From positions 1 to 42,784 of the forward strand of contig CAILCF010000004.1 of NCBI GenBank assembly GCA_903832635.1: DNA of 42,784 bases. The letters run 5' to 3'. The translations under genes were made by a program, and so were the position numbers. Origin of the DNA: an uncultured bacterium (GTDB lineage: Bacteria > Patescibacteriota > Saccharimonadia > Saccharimonadales > Saccharimonadaceae). Below the pieces are notes generated by a model that saw only the letters and a list, made by a program, of their open reading frames with translations, did not search any database and was not told the DNA's origin. Shown here in pieces: positions 1 through 30,578 of the stretch (positions within the stretch are counted from its first letter, which is position 1; each line of letters begins with the position of its first letter).

Positions 1-34
1 ATGGCGTGTCGTCTACTAGATAGATATGCTAATA

Positions 35-125
35 ACGGGTGACGTTCGGTGGGGCGGCACCCGATTTACTATAAAATGGTAATCCATTTTTATAAATCAG
101 GGGCGGACCGGACGGCAGGACCCGT
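35..125 (+). ncRNA. Candidate structured RNA, copy 1
   Basis: This segment shares two blocks with 30403-30489. The 21 bases at 35-55 are identical to 30403-30423, and CGGCAGGACC at 113-122 is identical to 30480-30489. The region between differs in sequence but keeps its fold. P1 is ACGGGT (35-40) with ACCCGT (120-125), P2 is CGGT (47-50) with ACCG (107-110), and P3 is CCC+GATTTA (60-68) with TAAATC+GGG (93-102), capped by AAAATGG/CCATTTT around TAAT. A weak -10 (TATGCT, 25-30) lies about seven bases upstream of P1. No terminator follows on this strand. I do not recognise the family, and the strand is chosen by analogy with copy 2. Confidence 0.55.
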
Positions 126-185
126 CAAAACTACAAAAAAAATGGTCGTTTATTATGATGATGTGAAGGAAATTGAGGGAAAAGA

Positions 186-665
186 CTATTTCCGGGTTAC
201 TTTAACCATTGAATGACGGATTGGGCGACCGTTTAGAGTATAGCCGGGTTGCATTTCTTCGGCGATTACTTCTTCGCCGTCCGGCGAATCACCCTCATCA
301 AACAAAATAGCTTCGTGCAAATCAGGGTTAAAAATAGTACCTGGTTTTGCGTCAATTCGCTTCAAATTCAATTCATCCAGTGATTTTTCAAGATTTTTCA
401 CCAAACTAGTGACGCCTTGTACCCACATGTTATCCCTTAGTTCATCCGGGGTATGAGTAATCGCCCTTTCAATATTGTCGATAACCGGTAAAAGTTTCAA
501 AATCGCGCTTGACTGCCCAGCCTCACGAGCAGATATTTTTTCGACCTCACTTCGCTTCATGTAGTTTTCAAAATCAGCACGGGTACGCTGTAAATCCTGG
601 GTTAATTCACCCATTTTTTGTAATAATTCCAATTCCTTCTTGTTTTTCTTGCTTTTTTCTACCAT
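186..665 (-). CDS. grpE: GrpE nucleotide exchange factor
   Basis: GrpE is the nucleotide exchange factor for the cytosolic Hsp70 chaperone DnaK. The 159-aa product starts with a Lys-rich stretch followed by the long coiled coil (about residues 10-65, with the ADFENYMKR-type segment). It ends with the beta domain, including PDLHEAI and the EEMQPGYTLNGRPIRHSMV block near the C terminus. Length is a little short for the family (usually 170-200 aa) because the acidic N-terminal tail is reduced. It lies 13 bases downstream of hrcA on the same strand, so both should be transcribed from the CIRCE-controlled promoter. dnaK would be expected next on this strand but is outside the window. Confidence 0.95.
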   Translation of the reverse strand: MVEKSKKNKKELELLQKMGELTQDLQRTRADFENYMKRSEVEKISAREAGQSSAILKLLPVIDNIERAITHTPDELRDNMWVQGVTSLVKNLEKSLDELNLKRIDAKPGTIFNPDLHEAILFDEGDSPDGEEVIAEEMQPGYTLNGRPIRHSMVKVTRK

Positions 666-13973: not shown

Positions 13974-14050
13974 GGTAGCGTAGCTCAGTTGGTTAGAGCG
14001 CAGGACTCATAAGCCTGAGGTCGCCGGTTCAATTCCAGCCGCTACTACCA
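13974..14050 (+). tRNA. tRNA-Met(CAT), elongator
   Basis: The 77-base gene has a seven-pair acceptor stem (GGTAGCG with CGCTACT, G-U at the first pair), a standard D-arm, anticodon loop CTCATAA, T-loop TTCAATT, and an encoded CCA. The base after the T-arm and the paired 1-72 position exclude the initiator. Mismatches are A-G at the base of the anticodon loop and C-A in the T stem. Elongator Met is preferred over Ile2 because the copy at 19580 resembles Ile2 far better. Confidence 0.85.
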
Positions 14051-15253: not shown

Positions 15254-15276
15254 TTTAGAAGGACGGACCTTCTAAA
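15254..15276 (+). repeat. REP-like palindrome, left of the transposase
   Basis: TTTAGAAGG, loop ACGGA, CCTTCTAAA: a perfect nine-pair hairpin 16 bases beyond the 3' end of the transposase gene. Its core AAGG-ACGGA-CCTT recurs at 15943-15957 (inverted) and in 18736-18788. Confidence 0.75.
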
Positions 15277-15292
15277 CGAATAAAATGTGTTG

Positions 15293-15910
15293 TTATATCT
15301 TATTTGCCAATTCAAATTTAATTTCTTCCAGCGATTTTTCGTAATCTTCGCTATCATCCAAAAAGTCGGCATACACCGGAGTCGATCCAAATATTTCAAT
15401 TACTCTTTCTTGTTGTAACCACTCGGGTTGACCAATGCCAAAATAAGCACTGATACTGGAATACGGATAAGCTCGCCAGTCACCGGGGTTCAGATGAATA
15501 TAACGGCTGATATGCATCAAATACGAATCGTTCGATATTCGCGAAGCCTTGTAGCGACTTTCGAATGGTGAACCCGAAGAATCGTATTTTTTATTGAAAT
15601 ATGTACTGTAACTGGTCATTATCCCGCGCATCAACCTAGACATAGCGCTTTTTTCAATTTGGTATAACAGCAGATGAAAATGATTTTCCATCAAACAATA
15701 ACTGAGAAGTTCAATTTTTCCTCGCAGATGTGTGTATGGTTTGCCGTATTTGTCTGCAGTCATTTCTAACGAAAGATGACGTTTTAACAGATTCAAAAAA
15801 ACTATGAAATCCTCATCATCACGGAATATTTTTTGCCGACCATGCCCACGCGCATAGACGTGATAATAACTTTCCTCAATATCAATCTTGATAACATTTC
15901 GACTGGGCAT
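15293..15910 (-). CDS. REP-associated tyrosine transposase (TnpA_REP/RAYT)
   Basis: The 205-aa protein belongs to the Y1 transposase superfamily (IS200-like HUH single-strand nucleases). The N-terminal YYHVYARG strand and the HUH site ENHFHLLL (His77, His79) are present. The RYIHLNP segment (Tyr137) aligns with the catalytic tyrosine region of E. coli TnpA_REP. All residues needed for nicking are intact, so the gene looks functional. It is monocistronic and flanked by palindromes with the same core. RAYTs differ from IS200 in being domesticated and spreading REP elements rather than themselves. The REP doublet at 18736 supports that view here. Confidence 0.9.
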   Translation of the reverse strand: MPSRNVIKIDIEESYYHVYARGHGRQKIFRDDEDFIVFLNLLKRHLSLEMTADKYGKPYTHLRGKIELLSYCLMENHFHLLLYQIEKSAMSRLMRGIMTSYSTYFNKKYDSSGSPFESRYKASRISNDSYLMHISRYIHLNPGDWRAYPYSSISAYFGIGQPEWLQQERVIEIFGSTPVYADFLDDSEDYEKSLEEIKFELANKI

Positions 15911-15937: not shown

Positions 15938-15962
15938 TTTTAGAAGGTCCGTCCTTCTAAAA
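15938..15962 (-). repeat. REP-like palindrome, right of the transposase
   Basis: TTTTAGAAGG, loop TCCGT, CCTTCTAAAA: a perfect ten-pair hairpin 27 bases upstream of the transposase start, and the reverse complement of the left element over its core. Confidence 0.75.
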
Positions 15963-15965
15963 TAA

Positions 15966-18853: not shown

Positions 18854-18930
<77 letters not shown>

Positions 18931-19579: not shown

Positions 19580-19655
19580 GGGGGCGTAGCTCATCGGTTA
19601 GAGCAGGCGGCTCATAACCACTTGGTAGCTGGTTCGATTCCAGCCGCCCCCACCA
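19580..19655 (+). tRNA. tRNA-Ile2(CAT), lysidine-modified
   Basis: The 76-base gene has a perfect acceptor stem (GGGGGCG with CGCCCCC), D-arm, anticodon loop CTCATAA, T-arm GCTGG-TTCGATT-CCAGC and encoded CCA. It lacks initiator features. GAGCAGGCGGCTCATAA and CTTGGT closely follow E. coli tRNA-Ile2, so C34 is expected to become lysidine through the TilS encoded at 9041. The anticodon stem contains one C-A mismatch. Confidence 0.82.
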
Positions 19656-29587: not shown

Positions 29588-29682
29588 TCCACCACTATTG
29601 TAACCCATAATGTAACCTGATTACACTGCCATCCATAATCAGGCTTTGCTATAATAGATTGGTTAATATAAAGGAGTATGTT

Positions 29683-30372
29683 TTGACCAGAAATCGTTGG
29701 ATTATTTTTGTAATTATTGCTGTTGGTGTTTTGGCGCTGATGATCCTCTCTTCAGGTAATTCGGGTATAAATGTCAGTAATGTTGACGTGAACGCCGTAC
29801 AGACAGGAAACAGCCAGAACGGAAATATTGGTGACCATGTCTTTGGCAAAGCTAATAGCAAGGTTACTCTGATTGAATACGGCGACTATCAATGCCCGCC
29901 GTGCGGCGAAATCTACCCTGTCGTTAAATCGATTACTAACAAATATATAAACCAGTTGCAATACGTGTTCCGAAATTTCCCGATTGCCGATTTACACCCT
30001 AACGCCAAAGCCGCAGCTGCCAGCGCCGAGGCTGCCGGTTTACAAGGTAAATATTGGCAAATGCACGATAAATTATACGAAACGCAAAATGACTGGAGTA
30101 GTTTGTCTGCCTCTGATCGAACGAACTTCTTTGATAGTTTGGCAAAAGGTATGGGTCTGGATATAAAAAAGTTTGACGCTGATATGTCGGCCTCTAATGT
30201 AACTTCGAAAATTAATTACGATATCGCACTTGGTAATAAATCTTCCGTTAGTGGAACACCTACATTCTTCCTAAATGGCAAAAAACTGGACACAAAGGCA
30301 TATGGCACACAGGCAACTTTTGAAGAAACGATTAATGCAGAATTGAAAAAAGCCGGAATACCTTTACCTTAA
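29683..30372 (+). CDS. Membrane-anchored DsbA-like thiol oxidoreductase
   Basis: The 229-aa product has an N-terminal anchor (WIIFVIIAVGVLALMIL) and an external thioredoxin-fold domain of the DsbA/BdbD type. Its active site CPPC lies in EYGDYQCPPCGEIYPV, and the cis-Pro region is VSGTPTFFLNG. It probably introduces or isomerises disulfides in exported proteins; several in this window have paired cysteines. The start is a TTG at 29683, with AAGGAG six bases upstream. The ATG at 29678 is out of frame, and the in-frame TTG at 29659 lies before the ribosome site. TATAAT is at 29650-29655. Confidence 0.9.
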   Translation: MTRNRWIIFVIIAVGVLALMILSSGNSGINVSNVDVNAVQTGNSQNGNIGDHVFGKANSKVTLIEYGDYQCPPCGEIYPVVKSITNKYINQLQYVFRNFPIADLHPNAKAAAASAEAAGLQGKYWQMHDKLYETQNDWSSLSASDRTNFFDSLAKGMGLDIKKFDADMSASNVTSKINYDIALGNKSSVSGTPTFFLNGKKLDTKAYGTQATFEETINAELKKAGIPLP

Positions 30373-30402: not shown

Positions 30403-30537
30403 ACGGGTGACGTTCGGTGGGGCAACCCCATGGATTGTTTTTATTGTAATCAATAAAAAAATTTATGGGGTAAACCGTGCGGCAGGACCTGTGGGCAATT
30501 AAAAACACCCCGGTGCCCTGGGGTGTTTTCTTTTTTT
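30403..30537 (+). ncRNA. Candidate structured RNA, copy 2, with terminator
   Basis: The first 21 bases equal those of copy 1 (35-55), and CGGCAGGACC (30480-30489) is also shared. P1 is ACGGGT with ACCTGT, a C-to-T change that keeps G-U pairing. P2 is CGGT/ACCG, and P3 is CCCCAT (30426-30431) with ATGGGG (30465-30470). P3 differs in sequence from copy 1 but keeps the stem. A -10-like TAATAA (30390-30395) lies seven bases upstream of P1, and a strong terminator follows at 30502, so the plus strand is favoured. It is 30 bases after the DsbA-like gene. I do not recognise an Rfam family. Confidence 0.65.
30502..30529 (+). terminator. Bidirectional terminator
   Basis: AAAACACCCC pairs with GGGGTGTTTT around an eight-base loop, followed by CTTTTTTT on the plus strand and TTTTTAATT on the minus strand. 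It serves the structured RNA and, from the other side, the 30-aa gene. Confidence 0.9.
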
Positions 30538-30578
30538 GTATCCGCCGTAAAGCGGATGGATTTTGAGTCAAACGACTC

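Follow-up and report, generated by a model that had tools for sequence, protein, structure and literature searches.

This analysis covers a 42,784-nt stretch, referred to here as the window, which makes up all of contig C4 in a Saccharibacteria genome of 793 kb (G000). An earlier note on this DNA had described two segments with common 5' and 3' blocks and a similar fold, and both are present, one close to the 5' end of the contig behind the 3' end of a GrpE reading frame and the other downstream of a DsbA/thioredoxin-like reading frame (Table 1). The functional names GrpE, DsbA-like, Pth, and xthA were assigned by inspection. The first 21 bases (ACGGGTGACGTTCGGTGGGGC) are identical in the two window copies, and the 3' end of each carries the block CGGCAGGACC. 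An 18-nt block that occurs twice in the window was found in 0 of 100 shuffles, even when 3 mismatches were allowed. The predicted folding energies are -38.8 kcal/mol for copy 1 and -37.3 kcal/mol for copy 2, each with a z of -4.5. Both structural differences that had been pointed out between the copies are real: copy 2 has a G-C to G-U change in P1, and P3 differs in sequence yet is paired in each copy. A terminator-like hairpin with a T run does follow copy 2, as had been reported; it is not conserved at other copies, whose flanks differ. By the same comparison, the "-10-like box" proposed in front of P1 is no feature of the element, because the sequence just outside P1 differs between copies. 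The window contig also contains three tRNA genes with a CAT anticodon (13974-14050, 18855-18930, and 19580-19655).

Table 1. Positions of the two element copies, their parts, and their neighbors in the window
Feature	Position	Strand	Evidence or remark
Copy 1 core, 89 nt, CCC-GATTTA inner stem	36..124	+	covariance model R1, 89.1 bits; fold z -4.5
Copy 1 P1	36-40/120-124		extendable to 35/125
Copy 1 P2	43-50/107-114		
Copy 1 unpaired GGGG	51-54		
Copy 1 conserved GA; conserved GCAGG	41-42; 115-119		
Copy 2 core, 88 nt, CCCCAT inner stem	30404..30491	+	covariance model R1, 82.6 bits; fold z -4.5
Copy 2 P1	30404-30408/30487-30491		
Copy 2 P2	30411-30418/30474-30481		
5' flank of copy 1, common to the C3 contig-end copy	1..35	+	99.4% identity over 161 nt between contig ends
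3' flank of copy 1, TGGTCGTTTATTATGATGA...	125..165	+	by eye, resembles the reverse complement of the L007 5' end, TCATTGTAATAAACGACAACC
Terminator-like hairpin AAAACACCCC...GGGGTGTTTT and T run, 3' of copy 2	30502..30538	+	from sequence
Copy 1 neighbor, ORF, GrpE by inspection of the translation	186..665	-	3' end towards copy 1
Copy 2 neighbor, 237-aa ORF, DsbA/thioredoxin-like by inspection	29659..30372	+	stops 31 nt short of the core

A copy at the end of contig C3 of the same genome is nearly identical to copy 1 at the C4 end, with ~35 nt on each side included, which implies that the assembly broke in this repeat. The 5' flank of copy 1 is also similar to the upstream region in locus L007. 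This flank belongs to a longer repeat of ~300 nt that was cut by the contig end and whose 3' part corresponds to copy 1. The likeness between the 3' flank of copy 1 and the L007 5' end probably reflects inverted repeats at the termini of the longer form. A common structured 5' module occupies ~200 nt upstream of the cores in L002, L007, L014, L016, L019, L022, and L023; together with the core it makes up an ~300-nt repeat with inverted ends. At L124, L131, L132, and L150 (G398), cores are nested in a longer repeat with TTGCTAGACCTGGCGTGAAGC downstream in common.

The "two-copy" count of the earlier note was too low. Pattern searches and a covariance model (R1) built from 17 copies detected eight full copies in G000, two each on contigs C3, C4, and C5 and one each on C1 and C2, as well as a truncated copy at C5:144267, and many more in related genomes. 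Model R1 found copies in 24 of 28 genomes of the genus (0-14 per genome) and in 69 of 393 genomes and 18 of 156 genera of the order, where the genomes are largely draft metagenome assemblies and gene calls are ORF-based. Outside the order, weak matches that kept the same conserved blocks appeared in 3 genomes of a phylum sample; in other Patescibacteria, copies are rare and divergent. A pattern scan of public genomes named other Saccharibacteria MAGs as well. Among nearly complete genomes, G113, G098, and G395 are rich in copies, whereas G102 and G323 of the genus have zero copies; viral, phage, and plasmid collections gave no match to the element. The core is 85-90 nt long, and some copies are longer through an outer stem. 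Most copies are intergenic, many of them at gene 3' ends. The open-access literature yielded no relevant paper on palindromic elements, MITEs, or REPs in Saccharibacteria or CPR bacteria.

The fold is conserved across these copies. P1 (CGGGU/ACCCG) is almost invariant, P2 varies in sequence with pairing kept, the GGGG is unpaired, P3 is variable, and the 3' end reads GRCAGGACCC. Standard pairs filled 91.6% of the cells in an alignment of 99 hits (94 distinct) that was fitted to the model, a procedure that favors the structure. Double changes occurred at 17 of 23 pairs, and 265 cells with double changes were observed, compared to 75 in shuffles and 95 in the best slid-structure control. Because the alignment was model-fitted, a second test used a custom tree-preserving null with a rough tail fit, under which 5 of 3570 column pairs reached E<0.05: three model pairs, the apical P3 pair 45-52, and a non-canonical pair, 7-106, which is A-G in 45 sequences and G-A in 42. 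The next ranks were mostly structure pairs. P1-P3 thus covary across further homologues; their failure to do so was one of the outcomes that the earlier note had named as refuting its proposal. G-U pairs (101) exceed A-C pairs (49), which lie mostly at one mis-assigned column pair (15-98), and this excess indicates that the sense strand is the one that folds. Correction of quasi-palindromes by template switching, rather than selection, would also make the arms complementary without any function, and the outer stems do vary freely. However, such correction should erase the asymmetric loops (GGGG and GRC/GRCAGG) and the mismatches, which are conserved phylum-wide, and we consider this origin of the covariation highly improbable.

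About 20 copies lie in frame within conserved genes, mostly in sense and some in antisense orientation, without stops and with the fold kept; N-terminal fusions are among them. Sense hosts are dnaX (in four genomes), cysS, gltX, topA, der, a sucC-sucD fusion, dus, tlyA (twice in one gene), sufB, miaA, a PBP, and mnmA, and antisense in-frame hosts are obg, xseA, an agmatine deiminase gene (aguA), and mnmA. Frame 0 is open in 12 of 14 sense genic copies compared to 22 of 77 intergenic copies (p=8.7e-5), and pairing is kept in 89% of cells in genic copies. The preferred frame, with the peptide RVxxGGAAP...GADxxxGP, is used by 12 of these 14 sense copies; genic copies of genus g3 use other reading frames. 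The best reading of these sequences is that in-gene copies are translated. A small self-splicing or ribosome-bypassed insert would likewise sit within conserved enzymes, be highly structured, and leave the flanking protein in frame, but the avoidance of stops in the host frame, the antisense in-frame copies, and the intergenic position of most copies make such an insert quite improbable. The stop avoidance counts against a self-splicing intron in particular, because an insert that is removed from the mRNA would be expected to tolerate stops.

At the insert position in cysS, a solved CysRS (3sp1) continues without an insert. Relatives have short variable loops at this site, and one (G397) has the 5' half of the core only; because of this half-deleted relic, the cysS site was rejected as an empty site. 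The dnaX linker alignment was too variable for exact insertion points. A second type of in-frame insert occurs in the DnaX linker (L068/L149, L064, and L076), with a peptide like SDSGPGVGSDLGS, and resembles sequence upstream of some cores; it is probably another palindromic family.

Other comparisons bear on mobility. Core edges are sharp, with homology between many copies ending ≤1-2 nt from the core, and a pair of copies at L263, separated by 8 kb, has 96.6% identity along a stretch of exactly 88 nt. Between species, identical copies occupy different loci: one and the same core is carried by G404, G308, and G378 at differing sites. Empty sites were seen at two loci only, where a filled/empty difference may be a gain or a loss. 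At the pth locus, G404 has a core and a short outer stem, and G378, with a 96% identical Pth, lacks both; at the pth gene end in G167, the core is in the opposite orientation to that in G404. At L112, the copy of G227 directly follows the T run of a terminator, and the same T run is uninterrupted in G394 and G397. No clear target-site duplication was found at these two empty-site loci. The genes between nearby copies in L258-L261, inspected for islands or transposons flanked by copy pairs, were ordinary-looking. The filling of different sites in related genomes shows a dispersed, mobile element. Separately, a conserved stretch lies just 3' of pth in ~10 genomes of the genus (GCGC..AAGGGTGGGC..GCGC..TTTACCCTTTAACCCACCC; L196, L186, L187, L190, L195, L198-L200, and L202); it is a possible ncRNA, and the example examined (L196) had no Rfam match.

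The earlier note had raised the possibility of a new ncRNA family. Its claim of a structured element outside known families holds, in that the Rfam search gave nothing above gathering threshold and relaxed thresholds gave nothing convincing; weak matches to copy 2 were far under gathering scores, and many lay over its terminator. The results do not support a simple ncRNA gene driven by a promoter of its own, because the copies are dispersed and mobile and occur in either orientation, both intergenically and in frame within protein-coding genes; this distribution typifies RPE/MITE-like elements, not a conserved ncRNA gene. A different possibility is a functional RNA module, such as a protein-binding or processing element or part of a terminator, that would act at the RNA level in mRNAs and 3' UTRs, with dispersal being secondary. 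The non-canonical covarying A-G/G-A pair (columns 7-106), the G-U excess, and the conserved unpaired GGGG and CAGG are consistent with such a role, as are the many copies at gene 3' ends and the 13 of 81 intergenic copies (~16%) whose flanks are self-complementary beyond the 5% level of swapped flanks, some of them terminator-like. Nevertheless, copies differ between close relatives and occupy unrelated places, antisense copies in genes and N-terminal fusions exist, and G102 and G323 do without any copy. Moreover, a function linked to the host mRNA is hard to reconcile with the genic copies that lie antisense. We regard the RNA module as an unlikely primary explanation.

We favor, with a probability of roughly 0.7, a small, non-autonomous, mobile palindromic element that is RPE-like, selected for its folded strand, and moved by a factor acting in trans. 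Direct evidence backs its repetition, mobility, fold conservation, strand polarity, and in-frame insertion; from these we infer that mobilization depends on the fold. The sense strand would fold into P1, a conserved asymmetric internal loop, P2, a loop with the unpaired GGGG, and a long variable P3, and the element would copy itself to new sites, mostly gene ends. Within genes, only in-frame, stop-free copies would survive, adding ~25-30 residues at loops, linkers, or N-termini. Selection on the folded strand with stem sequences left free suggests that a trans-acting enzyme may recognize the folded single strand (DNA or RNA) and not a fixed sequence, such that elements that keep the shape would keep moving. 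The fold is still kept in genic copies, which counts against selection on transposition alone, since that would not hold the fold there for long; these copies either are young insertions or have a fold that also matters after insertion. A broader version of the favored reading strikes us as doubtful: a phylum-wide Patescibacteria element in which the conserved three-dimensional fold is the unit of selection and a new type of enzyme would recognize a hairpin (ssDNA or RNA) by shape, repeatedly adding short peptides to essential enzymes with the fold kept in coding sequence.

Genes for Y1, reverse transcriptase (RT), and IS110 enzymes were considered as sources of the mobilizing activity and rejected, as their presence does not track copy number. 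G000 encodes two reverse transcriptase domains (C2:95863-96513 and C5:234581-235264). A REP-like element moved by a RAYT/Y1 transposase, of which one member is encoded in the window (15293-15910, minus strand), would account for the hairpin shape and the intergenic spread, and Y1 genes occur in 17 of 28 genomes of the genus. Yet the nearly complete genomes G113 and G167 have many copies without Y1, G323 and G402 have Y1 without copies, no GTAG-type tetranucleotide lies beside the element hairpin, and the palindrome that borders the window Y1 gene is another one (TTAGAAGG..CCTTCTAA), so that we judge this relationship improbable. The RAYT-like Y1 reading frame has its own palindrome repeats near 15258-15280 and 15940-15964 (TTAGAAGGACGGACCTTCTAA type), which are unrelated to the element.

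The favored mobile element also resembles other known systems in part. MITEs (NEMIS/Correia, RUP, and ERIC) are likewise small, non-autonomous, and mostly intergenic, with inverted ends; the Saccharibacteria element differs in that its stem sequence varies by compensatory change. Its empty sites show no clear target-site duplication, and none of the three enzyme families examined (Y1, RT, and IS110) follows its copies. REP/RAYT systems have in common with it dispersed hairpins and probable recognition as a folded single strand; unlike them, it lacks a GTAG-type tetranucleotide and does not track Y1 transposase presence. Integron attC sites vary in sequence and conserve a folded shape with extrahelical bases, as the element does, and on inspection no attC core boxes were seen in it.

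Closest in kind, by analogy and with no membership claimed, are the Rickettsia palindromic elements (RPEs), reportedly described by Ogata in 2000. We know of no mobilizing enzyme for RPEs. To our knowledge, protein-coding palindromes have been reported chiefly in Rickettsia and Wolbachia. RPEs are small, palindromic hairpin repeats of ~100-150 nt that occupy intergenic sites and also interrupt conserved protein genes in frame (PMC2229807, PMC10969869). The Saccharibacteria element is like them and the Wolbachia palindromic elements in being a dispersed hairpin repeat found both intergenically and in frame in conserved protein genes, and it differs from RPEs by belonging to another phylum, by its distinct conserved core, by its demonstrated strong covariation with a non-canonical pair, by its antisense in-frame copies, and by a range that covers an order and extends further. 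One repeat family can be named as the source of short inserts in essential proteins and of some of the contig breaks in the assemblies. A family in Patescibacteria with reduced genomes, which combines a fold shown by covariation with empty sites and with orthologues that have or lack inserts, makes the question of how protein-coding palindromes arise and are mobilized testable.
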